A DNA stretch of 64,000 bases. It comes from Streptomyces sp. WAC 04229. Lineage in GTDB: Bacteria; Actinomycetota; Actinomycetes; Streptomycetales; Streptomycetaceae. The position numbers and the translations under genes were made by a program. Below, piece by piece: positions 7,276 to 23,412 of the stretch (position 1 is the first letter of the stretch; every line of letters starts with the position of its first letter). The notes under the pieces are model-generated. The model saw nothing but the letters and a program-made list of their open reading frames with translations, was not told the DNA's origin and did no database searches. Where the stretch lies: the NCBI RefSeq assembly GCF_003947455.1, contig NZ_QHJH01000009.1, positions 1 through 64,000 on the forward strand. The letters run 5' to 3'.

Positions 7276-7288
7276 GCAGCTCAAACCG

Positions 7289-8434
7289 TCAGGTGGCCTC
7301 CGGTTGCATGTACGCGATCGTCTCCGCCAAGCCGTCCGGGTCAAAGTCCGAGACCTGCCCGGGGAACCACGAGAAGCGGAGGCCATTGGTGGCCACCTCC
7401 TCCGGGAGGCCCATTGCGGTCAGCACGTGGCTCGGCGTGTACGAGGCGCTGGTGCATGCGGAGCCAGTCGCCACGGCCACCTGATCCTTGATCCGTACGA
7501 TCAGGGCCTCGGCGTTCAGCCCGTCGAAGGTCACATTGAGGATGTGCGGGACCGCGTGGTCGGCATCGCCGTTGATCTGGAAGCGGGTCTTCCCGAGCGC
7601 GGCGAGCAGCCGCTCCCGCATCTCCTTGGCGTCCCGCTCCCAACGCGACCGGTTCTCCTGGAAGACCTTGGCTGCTTCGTACAGTCCCATGATCAGTGGC
7701 ACGGGGAGCGTCCCCGGGCGCAGCTTTCGCTCCTGCCCGCCACCGAACATGATCGGCTCCAGTGGCACCTTGTTCCAGCCGCGACGCCGGGTCACCAGAG
7801 CGCCGATCCCCTTGGGTGCACCGACCTTGTGGCCGCTGATGCTGGTCAAATCAATGGGCGCCTTCAGGTCCTCGGGAACCTTCGCGTACCCCTGCGCGGC
7901 GTCAACGTGGAGATAAGTCGGGGTCTTCTGGAGCTTCTCCGCCAGCTCGGCCACGGGCTGGATGACGCCCGTCTCATTGTTCACGTGCATTAGCGAGACG
8001 AGCAGGGTGTCCGGCCTCAGCTTCTCCAGCACGGCCTCCGTGGAGATCCGCCCAGAGGGGCCGGGCTCCAGGAAGTCGACCTCGAACCCCTGCTTCTCCT
8101 GCAGATGCAGCAGAGGCTCGATGACCGCCTTGTGCTCGATGGCGGAGGTGATGATGTGCTTTCGGGCGTACTTCTCGCCATACGGGGCCATGCCGAGCAG
8201 CGCGATGTTGTTGGACTCCGTCGCTCCACTGGTGAAGATGACCTCTTCGGTCCTCACACCGACCGTCCCGGCGAGGAACGCCCTGGCCTCCTGGACCGCT
8301 CTCTTTGCCCGGGCTCCGTACTCATGGGTGCGGCTGCCGGCGTTGCCGAAGTCTTCGGTCATCCAGTGGAGCACCACGTCAGCCACCCGCGGCTCCACAC
8401 GGGTCGTCGCCGCCACATCCAGATACGCCACCAC
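7289..8434 (-). CDS. dndA: Cysteine desulfurase DndA
   Basis: 381 residues, a PLP-dependent class V aminotransferase-fold enzyme that takes sulfur from L-cysteine for DNA phosphorothioation and helps build the DndC iron-sulfur cluster. The PLP-Lys is in TSISGHKVGAPKGIGAL. FTSGATESNN and HVDAAQGYAK (PLP-binding Asp) precede it, and the catalytic Cys loop is ATGSACTSAS. An open frame extends to TTG 8461, but homology begins with AYLDVAATTR, so GTG 8434 (or 8431), with GGGATGGG upstream, is preferred and gives the usual ~380-residue length. It is divergent from dndB across a 258-bp regulatory region, the layout described for S. lividans. Confidence 0.93.
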   Translation of the reverse strand: MVAYLDVAATTRVEPRVADVVLHWMTEDFGNAGSRTHEYGARAKRAVQEARAFLAGTVGVRTEEVIFTSGATESNNIALLGMAPYGEKYARKHIITSAIEHKAVIEPLLHLQEKQGFEVDFLEPGPSGRISTEAVLEKLRPDTLLVSLMHVNNETGVIQPVAELAEKLQKTPTYLHVDAAQGYAKVPEDLKAPIDLTSISGHKVGAPKGIGALVTRRRGWNKVPLEPIMFGGGQERKLRPGTLPVPLIMGLYEAAKVFQENRSRWERDAKEMRERLLAALGKTRFQINGDADHAVPHILNVTFDGLNAEALIVRIKDQVAVATGSACTSASYTPSHVLTAMGLPEEVATNGLRFSWFPGQVSDFDPDGLAETIAYMQPEAT

Positions 8435-8473
8435 CGCGCTCACCCATCCCAGAGCAATCAACCCGTTACCGGG

Positions 8474-8493
8474 TACGTCAAACCGTTAACGTA
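8474..8493. promoter_or_regulatory. Operator-like site near dndA (TACG-N12-CGTA)
   Basis: A 20-bp imperfect palindrome beginning TACGTCA and ending GTTAACGTA, 40 bp upstream of the dndA start. The reverse complement of the site at 8658-8677 matches it at 16 of 20 positions. The pair mirrors the divergent promoters. Binding protein unknown; DndB or an element-borne regulator is possible. Confidence 0.65.
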
Positions 8494-8624
8494 CACGCAT
8501 GCTCGCCTGACGCACAGCGCGGCGCCTTAGAGTTGCCAACGCAGACATCGACGTACGTCTTCCCGCGCAGGGACACTCTTCGCTCGAGCCGGGCGTCCCC
8601 CCTGACATGCCGGTGGGCCTTACG

Positions 8625-8641
8625 TACGTGAAGGTAACGTA
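8625..8641. promoter_or_regulatory. Third, shorter copy of the dnd operator motif
   Basis: TACGTGA...GTAACGTA with a 9-bp gap between TACG and CGTA instead of 12, preceded by another TACG (8621-8624). ACGTAC-like words also occur at 8551-8558. It is probably a weaker or alternative site. Confidence 0.45.
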
Positions 8642-8657
8642 ACTTCAGCAAGCTTCG

Positions 8658-8677
8658 TACGTTAACCAGATGACGTA
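8658..8677. promoter_or_regulatory. Operator-like site near dndB (TACG-N12-CGTA, inverted copy)
   Basis: TACGTTAAC...TGACGTA, ending 15 bp before the dndB GTG. It is the inverted counterpart of 8474-8493. Its position next to the start codon would let a bound protein block dndBCDE transcription or initiation. Confidence 0.65.
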
Positions 8678-8692
8678 CGCTAAGGTGGCCGG

Positions 8693-9832
8693 GTGGAGAT
8701 CAAAGCAGCGGCACCAGCGACCAGAGTCGTAGCTCCGCGCACCTCAACGGGGTTCGAGTACACGTTCCCTGCGATCCGCGGCATCCAGGCGGGACGCGAG
8801 TATTACGTCTCGATGTGCCCCTTGCGCCTCATCCCAAAGATTTTTATCTTCGACGAAGACGAGCTCTCGCCGGAACTGCGCGCCCAGCGGATCCTCAACA
8901 AGGGGCGCCTCCCGGCACTTACGAAGTACATTCTGGACAATCCAGGGGATTACGTCTTCAGTGCTTTGACCGCATCCGTCGACGGCGACGTGGAGTTCGA
9001 CCATCTCGGCTCCGACGGCAACGCCTTCCGTACCGGGCAGCTGCGCATCCCCATGGACTCTCGGTTCCTGATCAACGACGGCCAGCATCGGCGCGCAGCC
9101 ATCGAGCACGCCCTCAAGGAGAACCCGGACATCGGCAACGAGACGATCGCCGTCGTGTTCTTCCATGACGCAGGACTCGCCCGCTCGCAGCAGATGTTCG
9201 CGGACCTAAACCGGCACGCGGTGCGGCCTGCCCGGTCCATCGGCGTCCTCTACGACCACCGGGACGGCGAAGCTCAGGTCGCACGCACACTGGCCGGCCA
9301 GTGCAAGATCTTCAAGGGATACGTCGAGATGGAGAAGAGCACCCTCTCCGCCCGTTCCCGGATGATGTTCACCTTGAGCGCTCTCTACTACGGCACCCAG
9401 TCCCTCCTCCAGGGCCTGGAGATCGCGGCAGACGCCGCAGCTGAGCTGGCGCAGGAGTACTGGGAGCACATCGACACGACACTTCCCGAGTGGGAGATGG
9501 TTCGCAAGCGAGAGCTCTCGGCACCCGAAATGCGGCGCGACTTCATCCACAGTCACGGAATCGCATTGCACGCTCTCGGCCGCATCGGAAATTCCCTACT
9601 TCGGGAATCCATCGCGCCCAGTAAATGGAAACGGAAACTCTCTCCTCTGAAAAAGGTCGACTGGACTCGGTCGAATGCAGACTGGGAGGGACGCGCCATC
9701 GTCGGCGGCCGCGTTTCCAAGAGCCACCAAAATGTAACTCTTACAGTCAACTACCTGCGAAATCACCTGCGCCTCGGCCTCAGCCCCGAAGAGCAGCGGG
9801 TAGAGGACGCATACCTGCGAGGCGAGGCATGA
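8693..9832 (+). CDS. dndB: DndB, DGQHR-domain protein of the phosphorothioation operon
   Basis: 379 residues. The DGQHR signature is at residues 129-133 (RFLINDGQHRRAAIEHAL), with the companion FADLNRHAVRP later, as in DndB and the wider DGQHR family. In characterised systems DndB is not required for sulfur insertion; it limits modification frequency and has been described as a transcriptional regulator of the dnd operon. First gene of dndBCDE and overlaps dndC by 4 nt (ATGA). Start is GTG 8693 with AAGGTGG just upstream; the leader is probably very short. The C-terminal KRKLSPLKKVDW region is basic. Confidence 0.92.
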   Translation: MEIKAAAPATRVVAPRTSTGFEYTFPAIRGIQAGREYYVSMCPLRLIPKIFIFDEDELSPELRAQRILNKGRLPALTKYILDNPGDYVFSALTASVDGDVEFDHLGSDGNAFRTGQLRIPMDSRFLINDGQHRRAAIEHALKENPDIGNETIAVVFFHDAGLARSQQMFADLNRHAVRPARSIGVLYDHRDGEAQVARTLAGQCKIFKGYVEMEKSTLSARSRMMFTLSALYYGTQSLLQGLEIAADAAAELAQEYWEHIDTTLPEWEMVRKRELSAPEMRRDFIHSHGIALHALGRIGNSLLRESIAPSKWKRKLSPLKKVDWTRSNADWEGRAIVGGRVSKSHQNVTLTVNYLRNHLRLGLSPEEQRVEDAYLRGEA

Positions 9833-11427
9833 GCACCATCCCTCTGCAACTCGGCATCACGCCTGTCCGGCGGAAGCCGTTCGACGGGCAACCCCTCGAA
9901 GAGGTCATCGCCAAGCTCTCAGACGAGGTGCGTGAGCTCTACACCGCCGACCAGGTGCCCTGGGTCATCGGATACAGCGGCGGCAAGGACTCCACCGCGG
10001 TCCTTCAACTCGTATGGAACGCCATCGCCGCGCTGCCGGCGGAGCAGCGCACCAAGACGGTCCACGTCATCAGCACCGACACCCTCGTCGAGAACCCAGT
10101 CGTCGCGGCGTGGGTGACGACATCCCTGGTGACGATGGAGAAAGCCGCCGCCGAGCAGGGCCTCCCCATCGAGCCTCATCGCCTGACGCCGGAAATCAAG
10201 GACACCTTCTGGGTCAACCTGATCGGTCGGGGCTACCCGGCGCCGCGCCCCAAGTTCCGTTGGTGCACCGAGCGCCTCAAGATCAAGCCCTCCAACTCCT
10301 TCATCCGGAACGTCGTGGCAGCACATGGCGAGGCGATCATGGTGCTCGGTATCCGTAAGACCGAGAGCCAGGCGCGCGCCCGCGCCATGGAGAAGCACGA
10401 GAAGCGACGCGTCCGTGATCGTCTTTCCCCCAATGCAAACCTTCCCAACTCCCTCGTCTACAGCCCGGTCGAAGACTGGACCAACGATGACGTCTGGGAG
10501 TACCTGATGCAGAAGCCCAACCCGTGGGGCTACAACAATCAGGATCTCCTCACCATGTACCAGGGCGCCTCCGGCGATGGCGAGTGCCCGCTCGTGGTCG
10601 ACTCGACCACTCCCTCGTGCGGCTCCAGCCGCTTCGGGTGCTGGACGTGCACGCTCGTCGAGCAGGACAAGTCAATGTCGGCGATGATCCAGAACGACGA
10701 GGAGAAGGAGTGGATGAGGCCGCTCCTGGACCTCCGCGACAAGCTCGACGCCCCATTCGGCTATTTCGAAGAGGGCGAGGAAGGACTCCCCGCCGGCCGG
10801 AAGCTCCCGTACCCCCGCCCTGACCAGCCAGCCCGAGACTTCCGCCGCATGAACGGCAAGGTCATGGTCTACACGCGCCGGACCGACGGCGAAGAGGTCC
10901 CGATCCACGGACCGTACCTGCAGAAGTTCCGCCAGGACTGGCTCAAGGACCTGCTGGATGCCCAGACGTGGATCCGCGCCAACGCGCCGGAGCACGTCAA
11001 GAACATCGAGCTGATCACCCTCGACGAGCTGCACGAGATCCGCCGCCTCTGGGTCTTCGACAAACACGAGGTTGAGGACTCCCTGCCCCGTATCTACAAG
11101 GAGTCCACGGGCGACGACTTCCCGGGCGGACCTTTGGATGAGCAGCTCGTCATGGGCGCGGACGAGATGGAGCTCCTGAAGGAACTCTGCGAGGACGACG
11201 ACCTGCATTACGGCATGGTCCGTGAGCTGCTCTCCGTCGAGCGCAAGTACCGGACGATGTCCCGACGCGCTGGCCTCTTCCAAGCCCTGGAGACCGCCGT
11301 AAAGAAGGGTTACTACGAGGACAGCGCCGACGCCATCGACTTCGCGCAGCGCAAGAACAACTGGCGTGAGGAATCGCAGACCCACCTGACCCTGGACGAA
11401 GAAACCAATATCGATGCTCCTGCGTAA
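9829..11427 (+). CDS. dndC: DndC, PP-loop ATPase/iron-sulfur sulfurtransferase
   Basis: 532 residues. The PP-loop GYSGGKDST (residues 48-56) marks an ATP-pyrophosphatase of the PAPS-reductase type, which activates the DNA backbone phosphate for sulfur incorporation. RWCTERLKIKP gives the family's first conserved cysteine. The CPLVV and SCGSSRFGCWTC segments (about residues 255-275) supply the Cys set expected to hold the [4Fe-4S] cluster. Length matches S. lividans DndC. It overlaps dndB by 4 nt and dndD by 14 nt, so the operon is translationally coupled. Confidence 0.95.
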   Translation: MSTIPLQLGITPVRRKPFDGQPLEEVIAKLSDEVRELYTADQVPWVIGYSGGKDSTAVLQLVWNAIAALPAEQRTKTVHVISTDTLVENPVVAAWVTTSLVTMEKAAAEQGLPIEPHRLTPEIKDTFWVNLIGRGYPAPRPKFRWCTERLKIKPSNSFIRNVVAAHGEAIMVLGIRKTESQARARAMEKHEKRRVRDRLSPNANLPNSLVYSPVEDWTNDDVWEYLMQKPNPWGYNNQDLLTMYQGASGDGECPLVVDSTTPSCGSSRFGCWTCTLVEQDKSMSAMIQNDEEKEWMRPLLDLRDKLDAPFGYFEEGEEGLPAGRKLPYPRPDQPARDFRRMNGKVMVYTRRTDGEEVPIHGPYLQKFRQDWLKDLLDAQTWIRANAPEHVKNIELITLDELHEIRRLWVFDKHEVEDSLPRIYKESTGDDFPGGPLDEQLVMGADEMELLKELCEDDDLHYGMVRELLSVERKYRTMSRRAGLFQALETAVKKGYYEDSADAIDFAQRKNNWREESQTHLTLDEETNIDAPA

Positions 11428-13444
11428 GATCACTCTCGAAGAGTTCGGGGCTTACCGCGGCACCCAGTCGCTGGATCTGACCACCAAGAAGAACAAGCCA
11501 ATCGTCCTCATCGGCGGCCTCAATGGCTGCGGTAAGACGACCCTCCTCGACGCCATCCAGCTGGCACTGTACGGGCCGCGAGCACGTTGCAGCGGTCGAG
11601 GCAGCAAGTCATACGAGACGTACCTCCGCCAGAGCATCAACCGGCAGGCCGACCCGGCCCGCGGTGCGCAGATCATCCTGGAGTTCACAGTCACGGTGGA
11701 CGGCACGGAGCACTACTACAAGGTGGTCCGCAGCTGGCACACCAGCGGCAAGACGGCGCTCAAGGAATTCGTGAACGCGTTCGTCGATGAGAAGTACGGC
11801 TCCAGGGCGAAGCCAGGACAGCACGTCGAACCTGAGCTGAAGTACAGCCGGGTTCTGAGCCAGGAGTGGGCCGATCACATCGAGAGCCTGCTCCCCCTCG
11901 AAGTCGCTTCGCTGTCGTTTTTCGACGGAGAGAAGATCGAATCGCTCGCCGACCCCGAGCGCGCCGCATCGGTCATCGAGTCAGCCATCAACTCGCTGCT
12001 CGGTGTCAGCACCGTCCAGCAGCTCCGTACGGACCTGCTCGCGCTCCAGCGCCGGCAGAAGCTGTCGGACGAAGAGCAGCACCTGATGGACAAGATCCAC
12101 GCGGAGGAGCAGGAACGGCAGGCGGCCGACGCCTCTCTGGAGAACGCAGAACAGCAGGCAGCGCAGCGCAACAGCGAGCTAGTCAAAGCTCGGCGCGCTC
12201 TCGAAACGCTGGAGGCTGCCTACAAGCAGGAGGGTGGAAACCTCTTCGAGCGGCGCGTCGAGATCGAGCGCGAGTACGCGCAGGTGTCCGCTCGCCTCGC
12301 CGAAATCCGCAGCTCTCTCGTCCAGTTGGCTGCAGGCCCGCTTCCGCTCCTCATGATGGAAAGCCACCTCAAGGAGCTGCGCAAGCAGGCTGGTCGTGAG
12401 CGGAAAGCAGCCGAGTCCCACCAGGTACTGGGGGTGCTCGAAGAGCGTGACCAGTGGCTTCTGGACATGCTCCCTTCCGAGGCGAAGGCCGCCGTAATAA
12501 AGAAACTGGAGGCTGACCGCGCCAAGCGCGCCAAGTCCGCCGGCCTCAAGGTGGATCTCAGCCTCTCCCCGGACACGCTCCCCCAGCTGTCGGCACTCGA
12601 CGAGGCACTCAGTCGCGACAAGGCACGAGCCGCCGAACTCCTCCAGCAGGCTGCGGAAGCCGCCGAAGAGCATGTGCAGCTGGCGCGACAGCTGGCGGGT
12701 GTACCGGCCCAGAGCAAGGTCGAGGCCATTCAGAAGGAGCGTGAAGACCAGCTCCAGGAAGTCGCACGGCTGGAACGGGAGCACGAGAACAGCCTCAACA
12801 CCGTCGACGAGTTGAAGCGCCGCCTCGAATACGTCTCCGCCTCCCTGCAGCGTGCCCACGAAGAGTTCGTCCGCACCAAGGTGAAGGCCGAAGAGGTCGA
12901 GCGGATCATCAAGTACTCGGAGAAGGCCCGGAAGACACTAGAACAGTTCGGCGATGCCCTCCTCAAGCGCCACATCAGCCGCCTCGAGGTAGCAATGCTC
13001 ACGAGCTTCCAGACCCTCATGCGCAAGCAGGGCCTGGTGAACGACCTCCGCATCGATACCGACAAGTTCACGCTGACCCTGGCTGACACCGACGGAGAGC
13101 CGATCGACCCCGGCCGTCTCAGCGCGGGCGAGCGCCAGCTACTCGCTGTCTCCCTCCTCTGGGGCTTGATGAAGGTCGCCGGCAACCACCTGCCCAGCGT
13201 CATCGACACGCCGCTCGGCCGGCTCGACAGCCGCCACCGTGAGCACTTGGTGGACCGATACTTCCCATACGCCAGCGACCAAGTCCTCCTCCTCTCCACC
13301 GATGAGGAGATCGACGAGTACCTGCTTGGCCGCCTCAAGAAGTCTGTCGCCCACACCTACACCCTGGTCCACGACGACACCACCTTCACCACCACCGTCG
13401 TCGAGGGCTACTGGTGGAAGGTAGGAGCCAGCAATGTCGCTTGA
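11414..13444 (+). CDS. dndD: DndD, SMC-like ATPase of DNA phosphorothioation
   Basis: 676 residues. Walker A is GGLNGCGKTT (residues 34-43). A long coiled coil of Glu/Lys/Arg/Ala-rich heptads fills the middle (about 200-500). The C-terminal head has LSAGERQLLAVSLLWGL (ABC signature) and Walker B SVIDTPLGRLD. FFDGEKIESLAD is a DndD-family signature. DndD is thought to use ATP to open or nick DNA for sulfur insertion by DndC with DndE. It overlaps dndC by 14 nt and dndE by 11 nt. A second, more distant DndD-like ATPase is encoded at 17142-19220. Confidence 0.95.
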   Translation: MLLRKITLEEFGAYRGTQSLDLTTKKNKPIVLIGGLNGCGKTTLLDAIQLALYGPRARCSGRGSKSYETYLRQSINRQADPARGAQIILEFTVTVDGTEHYYKVVRSWHTSGKTALKEFVNAFVDEKYGSRAKPGQHVEPELKYSRVLSQEWADHIESLLPLEVASLSFFDGEKIESLADPERAASVIESAINSLLGVSTVQQLRTDLLALQRRQKLSDEEQHLMDKIHAEEQERQAADASLENAEQQAAQRNSELVKARRALETLEAAYKQEGGNLFERRVEIEREYAQVSARLAEIRSSLVQLAAGPLPLLMMESHLKELRKQAGRERKAAESHQVLGVLEERDQWLLDMLPSEAKAAVIKKLEADRAKRAKSAGLKVDLSLSPDTLPQLSALDEALSRDKARAAELLQQAAEAAEEHVQLARQLAGVPAQSKVEAIQKEREDQLQEVARLEREHENSLNTVDELKRRLEYVSASLQRAHEEFVRTKVKAEEVERIIKYSEKARKTLEQFGDALLKRHISRLEVAMLTSFQTLMRKQGLVNDLRIDTDKFTLTLADTDGEPIDPGRLSAGERQLLAVSLLWGLMKVAGNHLPSVIDTPLGRLDSRHREHLVDRYFPYASDQVLLLSTDEEIDEYLLGRLKKSVAHTYTLVHDDTTFTTTVVEGYWWKVGASNVA

Positions 13445-13811
13445 GAGCATCCGCCTCGCCACCGCAAGCAAGGACCGCCTGAGCCGTCTGAAGCGCACCA
13501 CCGGCATCACCCAGTGGAACGTCCTATGCCGCTGGGCCCTGACCCTCTCTTTGGCGGACGCCTCCACTCCCCTTGTCCGTGAGGTCGTCACCGACTCCAA
13601 CGTCGAGATGTCTTGGAAGACCTTCGCTGGGCCTCACGGAGACCTCTACCTCGCCCTGCTCAAGCAGCGCTGCGTGTCCGACGGACTGGAGCCGACGGAC
13701 GAGAATGTCTCCAAGACGCTGACGATCCATCTGGCCCGGGGGATCGGGTACTTGGGTGCGCACAAGGAAATGACGGCGATCGAGGGGCTCCTCGGGGCAG
13801 CTACGACGTGA
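13434..13811 (+). CDS. dndE: DndE, DNA-binding subunit of the Dnd complex
   Basis: 125 residues, the normal DndE length. The start (SLESIRLATASKDRLSRLKR, then TGITQWNVLCRWAL) and the end (LTIHLARGIGYLGAH) fit the DndE family, whose tetramer binds nicked DNA through basic surface residues. Last gene of dndBCDE, overlapping dndD by 11 nt. About 120 bp separate it from the next gene, so the following DGQHR gene may have its own promoter. Confidence 0.92.
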   Translation: MSLESIRLATASKDRLSRLKRTTGITQWNVLCRWALTLSLADASTPLVREVVTDSNVEMSWKTFAGPHGDLYLALLKQRCVSDGLEPTDENVSKTLTIHLARGIGYLGAHKEMTAIEGLLGAATT

Positions 13812-13933
13812 CCGCGCTACGAGGAGCGCGCGTACCCATGCGGGACCTTGGCCCTGTTAGAACTACCCCTGAGTGACGCAACGCACATGTAAGATCCTCC
13901 ATGTCGCTCACCACAGCCCAGGGGGGAAGAGGC

Positions 13934-15640
13934 ATGCCCGAGGAGAAGTTCGAGTATCCGGTATATGTCTCACAGGAAACCGCGACCAGTAAGCCGCTGT
14001 TGCTCTTCTCGGCCAAAGCAACCGACATTGATCGATGGGTCGGCGTCCCTCAGCGACGCCGACTCAGCGACAGTGAAACCGTTGGCTGGCAGCGGGAAGA
14101 AAATCAAGGGCGCCTGCGTGAACTGGCCAAGTTCTTCAGCGAAGAACGAAATGTAGTTCAGAACCCGCTCCTCGCTGCCCTTCAAGACCCCACAGCCGTC
14201 AGCTTCGTACCTAACGCTGAGCAGCCCAAGTTCGGCATCCTGACCATCCGCACCGAGTCGGTGGAGAACCTCACCCTGCTCGAGGCCCTCGATCGCGTGT
14301 GCGCGCGACTAGAGGAGCGGGTCCCTGCTCTCCGGGAACAACACATCGATGCCGCCCGCCGCCGGGCAATTCTTGACCAAGCCCGGCAGCAAAGCGAGTC
14401 CGTGCAGCAGCATTTTCCCGAAGAGGAAGAATCCGACCAGGAGGACTCTGACGGCGACTCCTTCCCTACCGAGGGCATCGATCCAGTTTCTGATCTCGCC
14501 TCTGCTCTCCTCATTGAAGAGACTCAGATCCTTGATTTCTACCTGGAGTTGAAGATAAGGGCATCGATCCTTCAGGAGATGCCCCCTCCACAGCGCCCGG
14601 ATAACTTGGCCGGCTTCACAATCGACGCTCTGCTTAGCTATTTGCGCCCCGTGGTACTGGTGGATGGCCAGCACCGTTTGCATGGAGCCGTCCGCGCCGC
14701 AGAAGATTTCGCAAACTCCAAGCAAGGGATGGACCTTGCAACCGTAGAGGTCGACAGTGGCGCCGAACCCGATCTAGCCCACAGGCAGGTCCTCGAATCG
14801 AAGGCCCGGTTCCTCCCGATCTCACTCTTGCTCGACTCCAACCCTTCGGAGCATGTCTTCCAGTTCGTAGTGGTGAACCAGAAGGCCACTCCCATGCAAC
14901 CGGCGCTGCTCGGTACCATCGTCTCGACCTCCCTATCGAAGGAGGAGACGGAACCCGTCGCAGATCGACTGCGCCGCGCTGGTATCCCCTTCGACGACTC
15001 CCAAGCTGTTGCCTACATGACCCGCTCTAGCGAGAGTCCTTTCATGGGACTGGTACAGACCGGCGTTGGGGGCGACGCCAGCAACCTACTCAAGTGGACG
15101 GTCCTGAAGTCTCTGACGTCTATCTTCCGTGAGCTAAGGGGTGGAAAAATCTTCGGCGGATCCGTCGATTTCGCCGACGTTTGGCGTCGGAAGCATTTTG
15201 AGAGCTCCGATCTTGTTTCCGCCGGAAGCAGCCTGGAAGAGAAATACAGCATCTGGAAAGCCCCGGATGGCCCTTGGCGTGGCGTCGCCATTCGATTCTT
15301 CTGGGAGATCAGGGATCGATTCGGTGACGATGACCAGAACGCCCATAACGCCTGGGGAAATACCACGTCAAATCTCTACAACAAGATCCATTTGACGATC
15401 CTGGCCGCCGACTACTTCCAGTTCCTCACCGAGCGCAAGATGACCTTGAATTCTATCGAGGATGTCAGCTCCACCGTTCAGTCTTGGCTCGAAGATGTGA
15501 ACAATCAGTACTTCAACCGAGATTGGCGCGTCGGACTAAAGAAAGACCAGCGAGCAGTCCGTGAGAAGTGGGCAAAAGTCTGGGTCGAGTATCGCAAGGA
15601 TCCGGAGCGTCTTCCGCGCGTAGAGAACTACACGCCCTGA
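13934..15640 (+). CDS. Second DGQHR-domain protein, partner of an HNH nuclease
   Basis: 568 residues. PVVLVDGQHRLHGAVRAA (about residues 240-258) is the DGQHR signature and FQFVVVNQKATPM is the companion motif, so this is a distant DndB relative. It is about 190 residues longer, with a very acidic insert (EEEESDQEDSDGD, about residues 163-175). ATG 13934 is chosen over ATG 13901 because a strong GGGGGGAAGAGG site lies just before it. The next gene, an HNH nuclease, starts 13 bp after its stop, so the two are co-transcribed. Role unknown; PT recognition or control of the nuclease is an inference. Confidence 0.78.
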   Translation: MPEEKFEYPVYVSQETATSKPLLLFSAKATDIDRWVGVPQRRRLSDSETVGWQREENQGRLRELAKFFSEERNVVQNPLLAALQDPTAVSFVPNAEQPKFGILTIRTESVENLTLLEALDRVCARLEERVPALREQHIDAARRRAILDQARQQSESVQQHFPEEEESDQEDSDGDSFPTEGIDPVSDLASALLIEETQILDFYLELKIRASILQEMPPPQRPDNLAGFTIDALLSYLRPVVLVDGQHRLHGAVRAAEDFANSKQGMDLATVEVDSGAEPDLAHRQVLESKARFLPISLLLDSNPSEHVFQFVVVNQKATPMQPALLGTIVSTSLSKEETEPVADRLRRAGIPFDDSQAVAYMTRSSESPFMGLVQTGVGGDASNLLKWTVLKSLTSIFRELRGGKIFGGSVDFADVWRRKHFESSDLVSAGSSLEEKYSIWKAPDGPWRGVAIRFFWEIRDRFGDDDQNAHNAWGNTTSNLYNKIHLTILAADYFQFLTERKMTLNSIEDVSSTVQSWLEDVNNQYFNRDWRVGLKKDQRAVREKWAKVWVEYRKDPERLPRVENYTP

Positions 15641-15653
15641 TCAAGGGCTCACT

Positions 15654-16619
15654 ATGGACACCCGCACCTTGGCCTCATGGATCACGGTAGCCCAACAAGC
15701 CTTCAGCTACCCATGGGAAACATCCCCGATCCATGCCCTCGCAAGAGAGTCGGTCCCCCAGCATGCACACGGCCCGCTGGGATGGCTACTAAAGTCCGAC
15801 ATACATTCCACCTGGGCCCTCTGGTACATAAACGGAATCGTCGATACTGCCGCCTACGAGACCGACACCGGATTGACCTACGCCCATTTCTACAGAGAAA
15901 TTCGCCAAGCCCTCCAGGAAGACCACAGGGGCACGCCTTGGGACGAGATCTCCCACCTGGCAAAGGCAGTCGCACAGACAGCATGGCCCGAGATTGAGTT
16001 CCGCCGGAGCGTCGACCGACGAAAGCTCACAAAGAAAGAACGCAGGGAGATCTGGAACAGTCAGCCGAACCCTAGATGCTACCTCTGCGGATACTTGTTC
16101 ACAGCCGCGGCAAGAGATCGGTTTTTATGGGTATCCGACGCGTCACAAGTAGATCCTCCAATCGCGGTTGATTTCGTTCGGCCGCGTGGACTCAGGCCAG
16201 TAGATCTCCTTCCGCAGGTGGATCATATTCGCCCTGTGGCCATCGGCGGAGAAACCTCCTTGGACAACTTGAGGCTTGCCTGCGGATGGTGCAACCGCAA
16301 GAAGTCCTCACATATCGACCTCTACGGAACTCCGTCCGCATACGCGGGCACTTTCGACCATCCGAACATGGGCAGGATCAGCGTTCCTCGCCCACTCTGG
16401 GTCGTTCGACTCGTAAAGATGCGGGGGCGCTGTGAGGACTATTCTGGCTGCAAAGCAAACATCGACAATGCAGAACTATTCGTAGCCCCCCGACGTCTAT
16501 CCGGGGCAATAAACCCCACCAACTGTGCCGTCTACTGCGATAGTCACGACCCGTGGCGTAATCAACGGTTCGTAGGAGCGAAAACCTACGCACAGAACTT
16601 CCACAAGAGTCGATTTTGA
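15654..16619 (+). CDS. HNH endonuclease linked to the Dnd island
   Basis: 321 residues. The HNH core is in the middle: CYLCG (Cys142, Cys145), QVDHIRPVAIGGETSLDNLR with the catalytic His, then CGWCNRKK. The four cysteines form the usual zinc-supporting pairs. The N-terminal ~140 residues (WYINGIVDTAAYETD) and C-terminal ~100 (with further Cys: RCEDYSGCKAN, CAVYCDSHD) are unfamiliar. It is translationally close to the DGQHR gene. Codon 158 (16125-16127) is TTA, the rarest Streptomyces codon, which makes translation depend on the bldA tRNA. GC content looks lower than in the flanking genes. A phosphorothioate-dependent or phage-directed nuclease is plausible but unproven. Confidence 0.82.
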   Translation: MDTRTLASWITVAQQAFSYPWETSPIHALARESVPQHAHGPLGWLLKSDIHSTWALWYINGIVDTAAYETDTGLTYAHFYREIRQALQEDHRGTPWDEISHLAKAVAQTAWPEIEFRRSVDRRKLTKKERREIWNSQPNPRCYLCGYLFTAAARDRFLWVSDASQVDPPIAVDFVRPRGLRPVDLLPQVDHIRPVAIGGETSLDNLRLACGWCNRKKSSHIDLYGTPSAYAGTFDHPNMGRISVPRPLWVVRLVKMRGRCEDYSGCKANIDNAELFVAPRRLSGAINPTNCAVYCDSHDPWRNQRFVGAKTYAQNFHKSRF

Positions 16620-16620
16620 T

Positions 16621-16663
16621 TTGGTGGGGTGCATCCCATGGGTGACGGGATACACCCCACCAA
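16621..16663. terminator. Hairpin between convergent Dnd operons
   Basis: Two 17-base arms (16621-16637 and 16647-16663) pair with one mismatch around a 9-base loop. The hairpin starts two bases after the HNH stop codon and ends just before the stop of the opposing operon. It probably ends transcription from both sides. Confidence 0.75.
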
Positions 16664-16668
16664 TTCCA

Positions 16669-17142
16669 CTACCAGTCCAAATCAGCGCTGGTCAGGATGT
16701 CGGCCACGTCGTCCTTCTCTTCCGTCGGTGGCGTCTGAAGACCCTCGATGACGAGGTTCGAAATGATCGAATCGAGGTCCTGGTCGGACTGACGGTTTAT
16801 GAGAGTCTGCAGGTGGGACAGGCCGGCGTTTGCGTATTCCTCGAAGATGAGAACCCGCTCAGGCTGGCGGTCCACACTAAGAATCTTCGGGTCGTCGGGG
16901 CACTCGACGGCTCCGAGCATGTCGAGGAGCACCTCCCCGTAGTCCCGGCTCTCCATGAGCGCGAGGCGGATCGGCTCATCGGCCTCGTCGAACGGCTTGC
17001 GCTCGCCTCGGCGGCGGCCGAGCAGTGCGGCGAACATCATCGCCTCGACCATGGTCGCGAACGTCCCGGTCTTTCTGTCGGTCAGCTTACCGAGCAAGTC
17101 CTCATGCGCCCGGGGCCGGCGGAATCGGTCCGTGTAGGCCAT
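16669..17142 (-). CDS. Small DNA phosphorothioation-associated protein (dnd_assoc_4-like)
   Basis: 157 residues, mostly helical and soluble. It begins with RFRRPRAHEDLLGKL and has MMFAALLGRRRG and RVLIFEEYANAGL. Size and pattern resemble the family I recall as phosphorothioation-associated protein 4, but this is from memory. Last gene of the minus-strand operon; its start directly abuts the end of the SMC-like ATPase gene (shared base at 17142). Such pairs of a small protein with a DndD-like ATPase recur near dnd genes. Biochemical role unknown. Confidence 0.6.
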   Translation of the reverse strand: MAYTDRFRRPRAHEDLLGKLTDRKTGTFATMVEAMMFAALLGRRRGERKPFDEADEPIRLALMESRDYGEVLLDMLGAVECPDDPKILSVDRQPERVLIFEEYANAGLSHLQTLINRQSDQDLDSIISNLVIEGLQTPPTEEKDDVADILTSADLDW

Positions 17143-19220
17143 CAGAAGGTCACCTTCTCCAGAACAGTGTGCTCGAAGTCGCCGTGTGACACGTACGGAA
17201 CCTCACGCTTGTTGATCACGATCGTCTCTTCACCCGCCGACTGGTTTGGCGTGTAAGAGCGCAGTACGTACATCTGATTGGCGGCCTGCTGGAGGTTCTC
17301 CAGAACCTTGCCCCGCGCCTGCGACTGCGAGAGCAGGGTGATGATCTGGCTTGTCAGCGCCGGCAGGGCCTTGGAGATCTCTTCCTGATAGGTCAGGTCG
17401 AGGCTGCCGAAGGGGGCGTCCATGACGACCGGGTAGACACCGCCGCTGCCGGTCTCGATAGTCGCCTCCCCCCTATTCTTCTTTCGAGCACTGATGTTCC
17501 TGGCAACCTCGGAAACCGCGCCGACGAAGCTGAGGCCGAGGATCTGGTTCTCACCGGTGGAGCGGATGGCAACTCCGCTCGCGGTGTGCAGTTCCAACTC
17601 GAAGTCGTCGTTCAGCTCGGGTACGTAGCTCTTGATGAAGATCCGGGAGAAGACCTCCTTGACCTTCTTGTCGAGCTGGTCGCGGACCTCCTCAGTCTTG
17701 ATCTCGAGGATCTCCTTCAGCGCGGCACGCACCTTCTCGACGAGCTCGACCTGCTTTTGAACCTTGCGGGCCTTCTCGCTCTTGACCTCAGCATTCCGGT
17801 ACTGACGGCCTGTGGCCTCTGCTTCCTGCTTGATCGAGGTGACCTTGTTCTCAGCCTCCTTGTGCGCGACGCGGGCGTCGGTCTCCTTGGAGGCGTAGTT
17901 CTTCCGGCGCTCGATGAGGCGCTGGACGTCCTGGATATTCACCCCCTCCAGCTGCCGATCGACATCGGAGCGTTCCTCTTCCAGCTCGCTGATCTCTGCG
18001 TCTGCCTTCTGAATGTCGGAAGCGTTGAGGGTGAGCTGCTCCAGGATCTCCTGGCGCCTCTCCTCCAGGTTCTTCATCTTGCCGCTGACCCGCATCCAGC
18101 TCTCCTGGACGTCCTCGAGGCCGGCGTTGTACTTGCGCTTGTCCAGCTCCTCGTACTCCTGGGTCCCCTCGCGAACCTCACGGCCGCACAAGCACAGCTG
18201 GGCTTCGAGGATGTCCTCGATGAAGCTGCGCTGGATGCCTGCGGGCAGCTGGCGGCGCTCTCGCATCTCGTCCGCGAGCTCAATCACCTTAGTGTCGATC
18301 CCGCTGGTCAGAGCCAGGAAGCCGTGCCGCGACAGCAGTTCGCGCTTGCGGCTCTTGTACTCCATGTGCCGGTCGTGCGCGGCCTTGATCCGGCGGGTCA
18401 GCGAGTCCCGCTTTTTCTGGAGCGGCTCCGCCTCCCTGTTCTGGAGCAGGGCGCGGTCAATGGCCTGGACTTCCTTCTGGAAGGCGCTGATTTCGCCGGA
18501 GAGGCGCAGCATCTCTGCAACCTCTTCCTTCTCGCGGGTGGCGAGGTGGTCCATATGGTCGGACAGCTGCTTCAGCCTGCTGTCCTCCTTGGAGTCGATC
18601 TCGCTGGCGAGCTTTCGGGAGACCTTCGGCAGGTCCTCCAGAGCACGCTCGATGGCCTCCAAGTCGAGAAGGGTCTTGATGGCCTTCTGGACCTCCTGGT
18701 TCTTGCCTTCGCCTTCCCGCTTCACGTCGCCGGAGAACATCTTCTCCATGCGCTCACCGTTGAAGAAGAAGAACTGACGCAGGCCCTTGGGCAGGATCTT
18801 CTCGATCCGATCCTGGCCGTTGAGGATGCTCTGGGCTTCGCCATCCGTCCCGATCTCCGTGACCGTCAGCTCAGGCTCAACTGGCTCCTGCTCCGCCTTC
18901 TCTTTGATAACAGTGACGTGGCGGACCACGGAGAACCGGGTCCCGTCGTGCTCGAAGTCCAGCCGAACGGAGGCCGTAATGTCCTCCCCGAACGCCGTGT
19001 CCGCCCATGCCTTGTCGTGAATGACGCGATGCTGCTGTTCCACGTCTTCCGAAAAGGTGCCGTACAGGGCCCAGGCGAACGCGTTGAGCAGGGTGGTCTT
19101 GCCGGCACCGTTGTTACCGAAGATGAGGACGGCGGGCTTGCCCTCCTCCACAGACAGGTCGAGAACCTGCTCACCGTAGAAGGCGCGAAAGTTCTTCAGC
19201 GTCAGCTTGAGCAGCTTCAC
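17142..19220 (-). CDS. SMC/Rad50-like ATPase with CxC hook, DndD relative
   Basis: 692 residues. Walker A is FGNNGAGKTT (residues 34-43), RQFFFFNGERMEKMF is a DndD-family signature, and the Walker B is VVMDAPFGSLD. The coiled coil is interrupted near residue 345 by LCLCGREV, a short Cys hook. The ABC signature is degenerate (LGLSFVGAVSEVAR). The protein is related to, but clearly distinct from, DndD at 11414-13444. GTG 19220 overlaps the preceding small gene by 4 nt. Encoded with a PLD/DEAD helicase, it probably forms a DNA-scanning or cleavage machine; that is inference from the gene set. Confidence 0.85.
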   Translation of the reverse strand: MKLLKLTLKNFRAFYGEQVLDLSVEEGKPAVLIFGNNGAGKTTLLNAFAWALYGTFSEDVEQQHRVIHDKAWADTAFGEDITASVRLDFEHDGTRFSVVRHVTVIKEKAEQEPVEPELTVTEIGTDGEAQSILNGQDRIEKILPKGLRQFFFFNGERMEKMFSGDVKREGEGKNQEVQKAIKTLLDLEAIERALEDLPKVSRKLASEIDSKEDSRLKQLSDHMDHLATREKEEVAEMLRLSGEISAFQKEVQAIDRALLQNREAEPLQKKRDSLTRRIKAAHDRHMEYKSRKRELLSRHGFLALTSGIDTKVIELADEMRERRQLPAGIQRSFIEDILEAQLCLCGREVREGTQEYEELDKRKYNAGLEDVQESWMRVSGKMKNLEERRQEILEQLTLNASDIQKADAEISELEEERSDVDRQLEGVNIQDVQRLIERRKNYASKETDARVAHKEAENKVTSIKQEAEATGRQYRNAEVKSEKARKVQKQVELVEKVRAALKEILEIKTEEVRDQLDKKVKEVFSRIFIKSYVPELNDDFELELHTASGVAIRSTGENQILGLSFVGAVSEVARNISARKKNRGEATIETGSGGVYPVVMDAPFGSLDLTYQEEISKALPALTSQIITLLSQSQARGKVLENLQQAANQMYVLRSYTPNQSAGEETIVINKREVPYVSHGDFEHTVLEKVTF

Positions 19221-19462: not shown

Positions 19463-21613
19463 TCAGGTGTCGAAGAGGCCGTAGCGTTCGCGCACGGGGC
19501 GGAGGACATTGAGCGTGTCCCCCTCGTTGTCAGCGAGGTAGGCAAACTCTTCGACGCGAGCCAGTTCGCGACGGAGCAGGCTGCGTTCGGTCTCGTACTG
19601 AATCGCGTCCCCGCCCGCAGGCGGCACGACGACGAAGTCGATGATGTCCGCGCGCTCCTTGCCGGGCGCCTTGCGCAGGACGCGGCCGCGGCGCTGGATG
19701 AACTGGCGGGGGTTGGAGGAACTGGACAGGAGGTAGGCGGTCCGGGAGGCCGGGACGTCCACGCCTTCGTCCAGGCAGCGCATGGAGGAGATGACCTGGA
19801 GGTCGTTGTTCTCGAAGCGGCGCAGGATGTCCAGGCGCGCCGAGCGCTTGGTCTCCGAGGTGTAGCGGGCAGCGGGCATGTGCAGCTCGTTGCCGACCAT
19901 CTCCATGACCTGGTCAATCTGACGCGAGCCGTCGGTGCCGTGTTCGTAGAACAGGGGGTGCTTGCCCTCGGCGCAGTAGATCAGCTGGTGGCTCGTGTCC
20001 CGGCGCCTCTCGATCTCCGCGTGGAGGATCTCTAGCTTGCCGCGGGCGTGGCCGATGATGTCGGCGCGCTTCTTCAGAAGTCGGCCGAGCGGGCTGTCCC
20101 GGTCGGCGGTCTCCTTCAGGTCTGTGCCGGCCGCGATCAGGCGGGCGATCTTCGCGCTGGTCTCTGCGTACAGCTCGGCTTCTTCGTCGTCCAGCTCCAC
20201 GAGGATGGGCGTGTAGGTGTAGCGGCACAGGGCGCTACGGCGGATGGCTTCGCCGATGCCCATCTCGAAGACGACTCGGTCGAAGTAGTCGGTGAGGGCG
20301 TCGGTGCCCTCCTCATCGAACCAGCGCTCCGGGGTGGCTGAGAGGCCGAGGCGGTACTGGGCCTTCTCCGGGAGGCGGGTACGCAGGTGCGCGGCACCGA
20401 GGTTGTGGGCCTCGTCCGCGATGAGGAGGAGGTGCCCCTGGTAGGAGCTGAGCAGGTTCTGGAAGGCATCGCCGCCGAAGGTGGCGTTGGTGGTGACGAT
20501 GACGCCGCCTCGCGTACCGCCCAGAGCAATGTTCTGGAGCAGGCTGTGAGCGCGCGGGGACCATCTGCTGGTCGCCTCGTAGGCCCGCAACGGTGTCACG
20601 CCGAACCACTCGATGTCCTTGGCCCATTGGTCGACCAAATGCTGGTACGGGGCCACGACGACGGTGAGGAGTGAGGCGGACGCATCGTTCTTCCGAAGGA
20701 GCGTGCCAAGCTGGGAGGCAGCGGAAAGTGCGGTCAGGGTCTTGCCCGTGCCTGTGGCCATGCGGAGGATGCCTCGACACTGGTTGCGGAACCAGTTCTG
20801 GACAGCTTCCTTCTGGTAGTCGCGAACCTTCAGGCTTGGCGGGATCGCAAGCGTGCCAGGAGGAGGCAGCGGCGTGGTGCGGATGGGGGTTCCGCCGGTC
20901 GGGAGGTCGTCCAGCTCGTACTGGTCGGCGGTGGCCCGGGCGCTGCGCTCGACGATCACCTTGGCGGCATCGGTGAACGGGATGACGCGCAGCATCTGCG
21001 TGCGGTTCTCCCAGAGGTCATCGAAGTCCTTGCTTATGCGCGCGGCCCGGCGTGCATCGCTCGGGTCCCAGCTCCGATAGACCTCGATCGCCTCGAAGTT
21101 GCCCACGAGACCGGAGCGGGTCTCGTTGGCGCTGCCCTTGAAGGCGATGACGTCTCGACCGTCCCGGAAGACACCGATCTTCTCGTGGTACATGCCAACG
21201 CGGCCACGCTCTTTGACATAGGCCAGCTTGAAATCGACTCGGCGCTCGGCGACCAGTCGTCCGAGCTTGCCGAGGCCGCGGGCTGCCCGCGCGTCCTCGA
21301 CCGCCTGCTCCAGGTCGCGGAGGGCAGCACGCTGGAGGACTTTGCGCAGCTCGTAGCCGTCCTCAATCTCCTTGATGTCGGCCGGGTCAAGGTAGGGGGA
21401 GGCGATGATCCGCATAGTGCCGCCGCGCGAGGTGAACTCGTCGATTCCCTGCCCGAGCGTGGCGATCACGGACGCAGCGAAGTAGCCGACGGCCCGGTCG
21501 TAGGCGGTGGAGGCGGCGAGGGCAGGCAGGTAGAAGTCCTCGACAAGGTTGTTGCGGTCGCTGCGGTAGTCGGACTCCGCGCCGCATTCGCGGAGGAGAG
21601 GGGAAGCCGCCAT
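19463..21613 (-). CDS. PLD-nuclease/DEAD-box helicase, putative phosphorothioation restriction enzyme
   Basis: 716 residues. The N-terminal ~230 form a phospholipase D-like nuclease with one HxK motif (MYHEKIGVF, His143) followed by FKGSANETRSGL. An SF2 helicase follows: motif I ATGTGKT, motif II LLIADEAHNLG, motif III LSATPERW, and motif VI FIQRRGRVLRKAPGKE. The combination matches the family I recall as the Dnd-system restriction enzyme. Expected action is ATP-driven movement on DNA with cleavage; whether it avoids PT-marked DNA must be tested. The start ATG shares a base with the upstream stop (TGATG). No dndFGH genes are present, so this is the leading restriction candidate. Confidence 0.85.
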   Translation of the reverse strand: MAASPLLRECGAESDYRSDRNNLVEDFYLPALAASTAYDRAVGYFAASVIATLGQGIDEFTSRGGTMRIIASPYLDPADIKEIEDGYELRKVLQRAALRDLEQAVEDARAARGLGKLGRLVAERRVDFKLAYVKERGRVGMYHEKIGVFRDGRDVIAFKGSANETRSGLVGNFEAIEVYRSWDPSDARRAARISKDFDDLWENRTQMLRVIPFTDAAKVIVERSARATADQYELDDLPTGGTPIRTTPLPPPGTLAIPPSLKVRDYQKEAVQNWFRNQCRGILRMATGTGKTLTALSAASQLGTLLRKNDASASLLTVVVAPYQHLVDQWAKDIEWFGVTPLRAYEATSRWSPRAHSLLQNIALGGTRGGVIVTTNATFGGDAFQNLLSSYQGHLLLIADEAHNLGAAHLRTRLPEKAQYRLGLSATPERWFDEEGTDALTDYFDRVVFEMGIGEAIRRSALCRYTYTPILVELDDEEAELYAETSAKIARLIAAGTDLKETADRDSPLGRLLKKRADIIGHARGKLEILHAEIERRRDTSHQLIYCAEGKHPLFYEHGTDGSRQIDQVMEMVGNELHMPAARYTSETKRSARLDILRRFENNDLQVISSMRCLDEGVDVPASRTAYLLSSSSNPRQFIQRRGRVLRKAPGKERADIIDFVVVPPAGGDAIQYETERSLLRRELARVEEFAYLADNEGDTLNVLRPVRERYGLFDT

Positions 21614-23412
21614 CAGAACAACCCCAGGTGGTCCATGAGGTCGTCCACGTCGGGGGCCTCGTCGACGGGGTGGGGCTGCTGCTCAGCCGACGCATCGGTC
21701 TCAGCGGTGCGGACTGCGGGGACAGCTGCTTCCTCGGAGCCAGTGTCCAGGTCTTCACCTATACGGCGGACGATCCCTCCGCGTGCGGTGAAGGGCGCAA
21801 TGGACATGGCGGCCCGCAGGCTGGACTCCTTGATGTCGAAGTCTCGGCGGAGAAGCGCCACGACCTTGTCTGCCTCAACCTGGCCGCCGTGCGCATCGAC
21901 CATGTCAGAGATCAGTTCCTTGATCGGCTTGTACACCGGGAGGTGCCACTCGGTCAGCGCCCACTGGTTCCGCTGGCTCCGGCTGAAGCGGGCATCCCCT
22001 TCGATCTGCTGCCGGAGGTACTGGATCCCGATGGCGACGCCCGTGCGCTCCTTCAGTTCCTCGACAGTCAGCGGGGTGTCCGCCTCGCGCAAGGCGGCCT
22101 CCACCTTGTCGAGGCGCTCGCGCTCACGCTGAAGCCCGCCGCGCGAGCCGACGCCGCCAGCAGCCTCGGTGGTCGAGGCGGACGCTTCTTCTTCTCGGGA
22201 GGAAAGTCCCTGGGCCGGGATCACTGCAGCGGAGGGTGCAGTCGTGTCGGAACCGTCCTGGAGGCACCAGGCTCCCCTGGCCGTGATCGCGAAGCGCACA
22301 TCCGTGAAGAGCGCCTCTGTCACTTCTCCCTGTGGCACGACGCCGTCCAGTGCACCCTCGATGAGCGAGGTGCTCATGCCCTCAGCGCAGCCTTCGAGGA
22401 GCTGCGCGATGAGATCTCCAGGCGACGCCTCCAGGCCCGCTTCGCCGGCATCCTCCAACATGCCTGCAAGCGGAATGGATCCGTCACTCTCGGCTTCCTT
22501 GTTTTTGACTTCTTCGGTCGCACTCGAAGGGCTACTACCCTCCGTAGTATTCTGCTCCGCCAAGGTTCCTTCGCTTCGCACTGCCCGACGGCGCTCGGAA
22601 TCGGTGGAGCGATCCGGCACAACCCAGCCCTCGCCCGCCGTGAAGGTCGCGTCGCGGAGCATGCGCGAGACCACTCCAAGCTCCCCGTCCGCCGTCTCCG
22701 CCTCGCCAAGCAGGTCACCGAGAGTAAGAGTACCCTCGCCGTTTCTGTTTATTAGGAGGAGGGCGGACAGCTGTTCAACCAGCTCGGACAGCCCGCCAGG
22801 GACGACAGCGGTCTCAGTCGGCTGGGGCTTGGAGCGAGTCAACGAGATCTGGGTGCCCTCACAGTCAAGACCGCAGTGGTTCAGCCACTGCCCCAGGGTG
22901 TCGAGATCGCTGGGGACAGGCACCTGGTGTGCGTCGAGAAGAGCAGAGGCTGTCGACTGGCTCATCACCTCGTCGACATCAAGATCAAGGGCTCTCACCG
23001 TGGCGGCGCCGCACTCTTCCAGATCATCCATAAAGATCCACTGTCCCGTCGGGGACGTGGAGGTGGTTGCGTCCAGCCAGCGCATGCCGGTGAACAGGCG
23101 GAGGACGGTGAGCCTGTCCCCAATGTTCTCGCCAAGCCAGGCGTGGCGGTCCAGAAACGAACTGACGAGGCAAGGTTTCCGCAGGTCAAGCTCAGCGTGC
23201 TCTATCCAGACACGGAGAACCGAATCCCCCTCGACACAGCGGTTGAACTCGTCCATGAGGAAGTTTCGGCACTGCCGCGCAGTCTCCCGAAGAAGGGCAT
23301 GCTGAGACGCAAGTTCGCCCAGCGGAACTGGATCCTCTGCGCAGAAGTGCTGCAGGACGAGGTCTCGGTTGAAGCTGCTGAGCCCCTTGTACCAACGGTC
23401 GAATGCGTTCAT
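21613..23412 (-). CDS. Winged-helix-repeat DNA-binding-type protein, first gene of the Dnd-linked operon
   Basis: 599 residues, family not firmly recognised. The N-terminus (NAFDRWYKGLSSFNRDLVLQ, then PVPLGELASQHALLRETARQ) looks like a sigma-70 region 4-type HTH. Further on, three segments share a winged-helix-like ending, D-x-x-F followed by W: DATFTAGEGWVV, DVRFAITARGAWCL and DARFSRSQRNQWAL. The third sits after LTVEELKERTGV. A long Ser/Glu-rich, low-complexity part lies between. ATG 23412 is preferred to GTG 23469 because the extra residues look unstructured. It probably provides DNA or target recognition for the helicase and ATPase downstream; this is inference. Confidence 0.65.
   Translation of the reverse strand: MNAFDRWYKGLSSFNRDLVLQHFCAEDPVPLGELASQHALLRETARQCRNFLMDEFNRCVEGDSVLRVWIEHAELDLRKPCLVSSFLDRHAWLGENIGDRLTVLRLFTGMRWLDATTSTSPTGQWIFMDDLEECGAATVRALDLDVDEVMSQSTASALLDAHQVPVPSDLDTLGQWLNHCGLDCEGTQISLTRSKPQPTETAVVPGGLSELVEQLSALLLINRNGEGTLTLGDLLGEAETADGELGVVSRMLRDATFTAGEGWVVPDRSTDSERRRAVRSEGTLAEQNTTEGSSPSSATEEVKNKEAESDGSIPLAGMLEDAGEAGLEASPGDLIAQLLEGCAEGMSTSLIEGALDGVVPQGEVTEALFTDVRFAITARGAWCLQDGSDTTAPSAAVIPAQGLSSREEEASASTTEAAGGVGSRGGLQRERERLDKVEAALREADTPLTVEELKERTGVAIGIQYLRQQIEGDARFSRSQRNQWALTEWHLPVYKPIKELISDMVDAHGGQVEADKVVALLRRDFDIKESSLRAAMSIAPFTARGGIVRRIGEDLDTGSEEAAVPAVRTAETDASAEQQPHPVDEAPDVDDLMDHLGLF

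Follow-up and report, generated by a model that had tools for sequence, protein, structure and literature searches.

The subject of this analysis is a pair of adjacent genes in a 64,000-nucleotide stretch of Streptomyces sp. WAC 04229 (contig NZ_QHJH01000009.1, positions 1 to 64,000; hereafter the window), the first coding for a long DGQHR-motif protein and the second for an HNH endonuclease. The two genes form a conserved unit that is inherited together, with neither the sensor motif nor the nuclease residues disrupted, and the unit accompanies a host DNA-modification system, the phosphorothioate (PT) system Dnd in the window's type and the 7-deazaguanine system Dpd in a sister clade. We propose, with a probability of roughly 0.6, that the pair is a two-chain restriction effector, analogous to SspE and DndI, that acts in concert with the mark on its own host's DNA.

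13,934 to 15,640, plus strand: long DGQHR protein of 568 amino acids (aa), an open reading frame (ORF) with DGQHR at residues 244-248; proposed ParB-fold, mark-sensing NTPase subunit.
15,654 to 16,619, plus strand: HNH endonuclease of 321 aa, an ORF with a PF01844 domain.

The pair had been picked out in an earlier annotation made from the letters alone (the sequence-only reading), and it is real: both ORFs were confirmed, the acidic insert ascribed to the DGQHR protein is present (an acidic stretch at approximately residues 161-175, next to a low-confidence insert with a predicted local distance difference test score, pLDDT, below 50 at 167-195), and the two-gene order is shared by relatives. 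A scan of genome contigs that was blind to dnd gave 29 loci, although it was not exhaustive and members without dnd or dpd were possibly missed, and a scan of viral contigs gave two more. In all 31 of these collection loci an HNH-type ORF lies directly downstream of the DGQHR gene, with a gap of -4 to +24 nt at script-chosen starts (13 nt between stop and start in the window), and chance is therefore excluded as an explanation of the order. The hosts include Actinomycetota, Pseudomonadota, Acidobacteriota, and Cyanobacteriota. The pair was found in three of 297 Streptomycetaceae genomes, the window's own included, and its relatives in three of 72,556 plasmid records; locus L021 comes from the same genome as G106. 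Searches of phylum (396) and class (394) genomes, each set containing the window's genome, gave the window's own pair as the only full match. The weak matches were L050 (a Dpd-linked DGQHR gene with the HNH gene upstream, whose DpdB is L051), L060 (a DpdB-like ORF), and L061 (beside a dpdA-like ORF), the last two having no pair in their 3.3 kb. A single-protein pattern scan of genome contigs with the DGQHR protein found no relatives, where the alignment-based scan succeeded; there were likewise none in a viral-contig scan with one Dpd-type member, and none in phage records.

Distances among the DGQHR proteins follow those among the HNH proteins closely (r = 0.957 over 32 pairs, and 0.915 within the Dnd-linked set of 27), and none of 2,000 permutations gave a correlation as high. 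For the 18 loci with DndC in hand, the DGQHR-HNH correlation is 0.921 versus 0.796 for DGQHR-DndC. Both this comparison and the tree described below omit L048 and L049, which are near-copies of Streptomyces loci. The DGQHR pentapeptide (D244-R248), which lies within the sequence VLVDGQHRL at residues 241-249, is invariant in 33 of 33 aligned pairs, as are H191, N205, N214, and K217 of the HNH protein.

The HNH protein scores 37.3 bits against PF01844, passing the Pfam cut-off of 21.4, and consists of a helical N-terminal domain, the HNH domain at approximately residues 121-222 (C142, C145, H191, N205, C210, C213, N214, and K217), and a second cysteine cluster at C260, C266, and C295. The relative at L039 lacks one cysteine from each CxxC motif and retains the histidine and asparagine. 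No SBD or SRA domain was found on the HNH chain, only HNH families being matched in Pfam at E≤1, and PADLOC-DB 2.0.0 holds no specific model for it, giving only weak PtuB and REase matches to the HNH core of at most 18 bits.

The link to PT that the sequence-only reading had postulated also holds, because 25 of the 29 scan loci are Dnd-linked, 21 of them with dnd genes in the 10-kb flank and four with dndC elsewhere in the genome. Two of these four, L023 and L036, have dndC about 19 kb away and just past the flank, respectively; the gene listed as 'dndD' in L023 is in fact pbeC and did not enter the dnd count. The dndC gene is rare, being above cut-off in 20 of the 297 Streptomycetaceae genomes and eight of the 394 class genomes, and all three pair-bearing Streptomycetaceae fall within those 20 (chance 2.6e-4). 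With the window's genome omitted, both remaining pair genomes are among the 19 dndC-positive of 296 (chance 0.004). On plasmids, dndC was found in 43 of the 72,556 records (tblastn, 1e-40; 30 of these cover more than 80% of the query), and both Dnd-type pair plasmids, which are near-copies, are among the 43. The pair is conserved and tied to Dnd, and a phosphorothioate-linked nuclease is therefore the natural reading.

Its position relative to dnd is variable. Eight of the 21 loci with flanking dnd genes have the nearest one upstream in the same orientation, at least 3.1 kb off; eight have it downstream in convergent orientation, four upstream on the other strand, and one downstream in the same orientation. 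Distances to downstream dnd genes were reckoned from the HNH ends, and no more than 60-74 nt separate the HNH gene from a convergent dndE in L019, L041, and L043. Because side and strand vary in this way, the pair is a module beside dnd and not a dnd operon gene; the placement directly after dndE given by the sequence-only reading is accurate for the window and particular to that locus, the other 21 scan loci being arranged otherwise. This variation in order and strand, together with the other defence-type genes nearby, is also what would be expected if unrelated defence genes had simply gathered in an island with dnd by chance clustering. However, all 25 Dnd-type genomes have dnd genes despite the rarity of dndC, and all five loci of the sister clade have dpd, so that a chance defence island, to which we give next to no weight, was rejected on these counts and the tree, as was a DndB duplicate.

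The sequence-only reading had further taken the DGQHR protein to be DndB-like, and this label had to be given up. The DndB model TIGR03233 is unmatched at E≤1, PF14072 gives 16.3 bits against 29.1, and the protein lies outside the DndB clade. It was likewise rejected as DpdB (NF041060, 27.8 bits against a cut-off of 300, and a separate clade in the tree) and as DNA phosphorothioation-associated DGQHR protein 1 (TIGR04172, 14.6 bits against 450), and with 41.4 bits against the DGQHR domain model TIGR03187 (cut-off 58.85) it is below every curated DGQHR-family cut-off tested. A specific model for it was not found in PADLOC-DB 2.0.0, where only a weak DpdB match of 29.9 bits was obtained. In a tree of 43 DGQHR proteins, which for brevity also omits L020, L022, L023, L029, L030, and L042, the pair sensors group together in a separate clade (99/98), distinct from those of DndB (98/95) and DpdB (100/99); four stray DGQHR rows sit on very long branches and their placement is unsure. 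DndB and DpdB, which belong to the ParB superfamily whose fold is proposed for the DGQHR chain, resemble that chain in having a DGQHR or DGQQR motif and in being encoded at the same loci, but they differ in forming separate clades, in being shorter, and in lying inside the modification operon; DpdB reportedly assists in inserting the 7-deazaguanine mark (PMC12839542). DndB, itself a DGQHR protein of that superfamily, has been described as repressing dnd in an ATP-dependent manner (PMC10853773, PMC12704722), and by this precedent the pair could be regulatory, with the DGQHR chain as a DndB-like repressor and the HNH chain as its partner or a relic. This is highly improbable given that a true dndB (551 bits) is present in the window, that the DGQHR chain does not fall within the DndB clade, and that the catalytic residues of the HNH protein are invariant in 33 of 33 pairs.

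The sensor clade contains 21 Dnd-linked members (the window, Agrobacterium, and 19 of the 25 scan loci) and five Dpd-linked ones, and splits in two by chemistry, Dnd versus Dpd (100/99 and 99/95), with one change on the tree. The Dpd-linked sister clade is made up of four scan loci (Sphingomonas, Myxococcus, a Burkholderiales metagenome-assembled genome, and Scytonema) and a Bradyrhizobium plasmid, and its members have a shorter sensor with the HNH gene behind. Both dpdA and dpdB are present in the fetched stretch of all five, and dndC is unmatched in three of the four scan genomes, Scytonema having dndC elsewhere. The Dpd-type sample is small, and the alignment A1 included one Dpd-type row (L004), which was an aid in finding this type. 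The pair family thus accompanies a second chemistry, Dpd, besides PT. The sequence-only reading had held that finding the pair without dnd would speak against its idea; the sister clade answers to this description in the letter, yet its members adjoin Dpd, which widens the idea rather than removing it. We tentatively suggest, at a little short of even odds, that one scaffold has been tuned to two unrelated self marks, the backbone sulfur of Dnd and the 7-deazaguanine base of Dpd, making the pair a general, retargetable restriction effector that reads self marks and an undescribed restriction arm for both systems. If the alignment is right, L249, L294, S297, and P304, each shared by at least 95% of the 28 Dnd-type rows whereas all five Dpd rows carry a single different residue there, are examples of candidate mark-discriminating residues.

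Two other arrangements were seen near Dpd genes. In L050 (677-2613; actinobacterium G326) the gene for a short DGQHR protein (370 aa) has an HNH-type ORF upstream, a third arrangement, with dpdA and dpdB about 19 kb off on the same contig. In L058 (9819-12831), within a Dpd cluster on an A. vitis plasmid, the HNH gene comes first, followed by an IS5-family transposase gene and then the DGQHR gene.

The predicted structure of the DGQHR protein (pLDDT 85) aligns best, though weakly, with the ParB N-domain 5k5a (Z 6.2 over 219 residues, root-mean-square deviation 5.7), and next to this stand SspE (Z 4.2 over 147 residues) and BrxU (Z 3.1); Z 2 was reached by only eight of 995 chains. These are the families expected, because kinship between DGQHR and DUF262 has been described for GmrSD (PMC4619093). 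Searched against solved structures, the DGQHR alignment profile gave two matches (E 0.6 and 0.99), to the acidic stretch of cytochrome bc1 subunit 6, which we took as chance. The HNH model (pLDDT 92) resembles the GmeHNH nicking endonuclease (Z 4.7) and EcoKMcrA (Z 4.5), and its profile matches solved-structure sequences of GmeHNH (E 1.6e-4) and of a Cas9 HNH (E 5e-8).

We infer NTPase activity, mark reading, complex formation, and the direction of control as follows. The DGQHR chain would have the fold of a ParB/Srx-type NTPase and recognize phosphorothioate in the DNA of the host, contact with the mark would lead to NTP binding or hydrolysis and thereby to control of the HNH chain, and the HNH chain would nick or cut mark-free DNA such as that of phages and plasmids. 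Control may be SspE-like, with the mark licensing the nuclease, or DndI-like, with a nuclease that is on by default and is made by the mark to release self DNA.

In SspE and DndI a ParB-superfamily NTPase domain senses PT and is coupled to an HNH domain (PMC13251355, PMC11662687). DndI is Dnd-linked like the pair and combines the two kinds of domain that are proposed for the pair, and PT is reported to stimulate its ATPase and self DNA to be spared (PMC11662687); it differs in being a single chain of DUF262 plus DUF1524, whereas in the pair the DGQHR-type sensor and the PF01844-type HNH protein are separate chains. SspE, in which a PT-sensing NTPase with an essential arginine of DGQQR controls an HNH nickase (PMC13251355), resembles what is proposed for the pair, with a fold match that is weak; it is one chain, partners the single-strand PT of Ssp rather than Dnd, and has an HNH of another family. 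As two ORFs lacking DUF262 plus DUF1524 in one chain, the pair was rejected as a member of the SspE/DndI or GmrSD Type IV families. ScoMcrA-type proteins (wHTH(SBD)-SRA-HNH) are also HNH nucleases of Dnd loci (PMC10853773), and ScoMcrA cleaves PT DNA (PMC3009677), but they are one chain with SBD and SRA domains, whereas our HNH protein matched HNH families only. HNH nucleases are listed among dnd neighbours by Rakesh et al. (PMC10853773), section 17 naming the SBD-SRA-HNH type, and no description of the pair was found in the open-access literature searched, figures and supplements being outside that search.

GmrSD, BrxU, and GrwAB combine a DGQHR-related ParB/Srx-fold domain with HNH, sometimes as two genes (PMC4619093, PMC12137116), so the combination of a ParB-fold sensor and an HNH nuclease is itself already known, and the surprising part is the sister clades on two chemistries. 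These systems are described as acting against modified-DNA phages, including those with 7-deazaguanine (PMC12137116), and by analogy the pair could be a Type IV-style enzyme that cuts modification-bearing DNA, either incoming or self when misplaced. The pair, however, goes with the host's own modification genes, Dnd or Dpd being adjacent or elsewhere in the genome, and such an enzyme would attack its own host unless otherwise restrained; we consider this distinctly unlikely.

Several observations weigh against the proposed mark-sensing effector. In L031 and L034 the pair lies near a contig end and dndC is apparently on another contig (the contig numbers differ). Seventeen of the 20 dndC-positive Streptomycetaceae have no pair, showing that Dnd has no need of it. 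The GmrSD-type families of SspE and DndI (DUF262 and DUF1524) are unmatched in Pfam at E≤1 in either protein, the fold scores of the DGQHR model are all below Z 8, where a common arrangement can suffice, and by Foldseek alone neither model had a match at E≤0.001 (E 0.69 for the DGQHR model against 5k5a). Moreover, 15 of 24 searched pair genomes contain a PbeA-like match (E <1e-40), so that another restriction arm is present and the pair could be auxiliary. Finally, a suicidal back-up role has been proposed for standalone nucleases near dnd (Rakesh et al., PMC10853773).

The last two points, together with a strict two-gene pairing that recalls a toxin and its partner, favour the main rival to the sensor-nuclease reading, a back-up suicide nuclease in which the DGQHR chain restrains the HNH chain and frees it when Dnd or Pbe fails or is inhibited, the cell dying and the mark going unread. 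A pure back-up need not track the mark, however, and the sensor clades divide by modification chemistry; in addition, the other nine of the 24 genomes give only generic-helicase-level matches to the PbeA model. We therefore regard the suicide nuclease as an unlikely alternative to a mark-sensing effector. Weak matches to the PbeA model occurred in all 14 controls, hence only strong ones were counted, and the PbeA and DndH searches leave out L020 and L032. From these counts the pair appears to be independent of Pbe but often in its company. No DndH (TIGR03237) match was found in the 24 genomes, and as the controls also gave none, absence is not implied.

In the window the pair is situated between dndBCDE on its left and a convergent operon on its right, among the following features.

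5,839 to 7,275, plus strand: methyltransferase-like protein (PF13489, 26.2 bits, slightly below the cut-off of 27); context.
7,289 to 8,461, minus strand: dndA, cysteine desulfurase (PF00266; also by position and by homology to the DndA genes next to other pairs); context.
8,693 to 9,832, plus strand: dndB, a true DndB (TIGR03233, 551 bits), for comparison.
9,829 to 11,427, plus strand: dndC, PT sulfurtransferase (TIGR03183, 726.6 bits; start picked by eye).
11,414 to 13,444, plus strand: dndD, ABC ATPase (TIGR03185, 734.6 bits).
13,434 to 13,811, plus strand: dndE (TIGR03184, 122.3 bits).
16,616 to 16,672, no strand: hairpin between the convergent units (-30.8 kcal/mol, z -4.42; without a T-run).
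16,669 to 17,142, minus strand: pbeD-position gene, DNA phosphorothioation-associated protein 4 (TIGR04062, 94.3 bits, above cut-off); context.
17,142 to 19,220, minus strand: pbeC, ABC ATPase (PDLC02739, 914 bits); context.
19,463 to 21,613, minus strand: pbeA, PLD and SF2 helicase (PDLC02704, 865 bits; TIGR04095, 594.5 bits, cut-off 600); context.
21,613 to 23,469, minus strand: pbeB-position ORF of 618 aa, named by position only.

The sequence-only reading had placed the pair between two Dnd operons, which is right for the left side; the right-hand operon was rejected as a second dnd operon, being a PbeABCD-type (CxC ABC-ATPase) module by NCBIfam and PADLOC models. The DGQHR gene begins 122 nt beyond the end of dndE (13,811) on the same strand, with its start at 13,934 preceded by the purine-rich GGGGGGAAGAGGC; an in-frame ATG is also present at 13,901. 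A scan for terminator-like sites lists none on the plus strand in this spacer, which also has no unusual fold (z +0.63), and transcription of the pair by read-through from dnd is therefore plausible. The hairpin closes the pair unit and, although absent from the list of the terminator-like site scan, is probably a two-way terminator. NCBIfam and PADLOC searches with the pbeB-position ORF gave no matches, and it contains a weak PaaX-like winged helix at residues 519-556, below cut-off. Homologues of the methyltransferase-like protein recur next to dnd in related loci.

Additional genes lie between dnd and the pair at several other loci. In L029 (6153-9813) the space between dndE and the pair holds another DGQHR protein of about 724 aa with an Mrr-type (PF04471) nuclease behind it, and L025 (6041 onward) carries a related gene; these represent a second DGQHR-nuclease pair in Dnd loci. 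L039 (3318-5184) has an extra DGQHR protein (TIGR03187, 122.8 bits) and a 295-aa neighbour between the pair and dndE. In several Streptomycetaceae loci (L020, L021, and L022, at approximately 6900-9150) a GHKL-ATPase-type gene is found between dndE and the pair, the L021 copy matching HATPase_c_3 above cut-off and MzaB/BbrUII-like below cut-off.

According to Rakesh et al. (PMC10853773), DndFGH is missing from many Dnd loci, and how foreign DNA is restricted there has yet to be answered. The pair is a testable candidate for restriction in such loci, with catalytic residues that can be mutated, and the Dpd sister clade allows a direct comparison of sensors for two marks. With relatives beside two chemically different DNA-marking systems, the pair may provide a new way of telling self from foreign DNA in defence against viruses.

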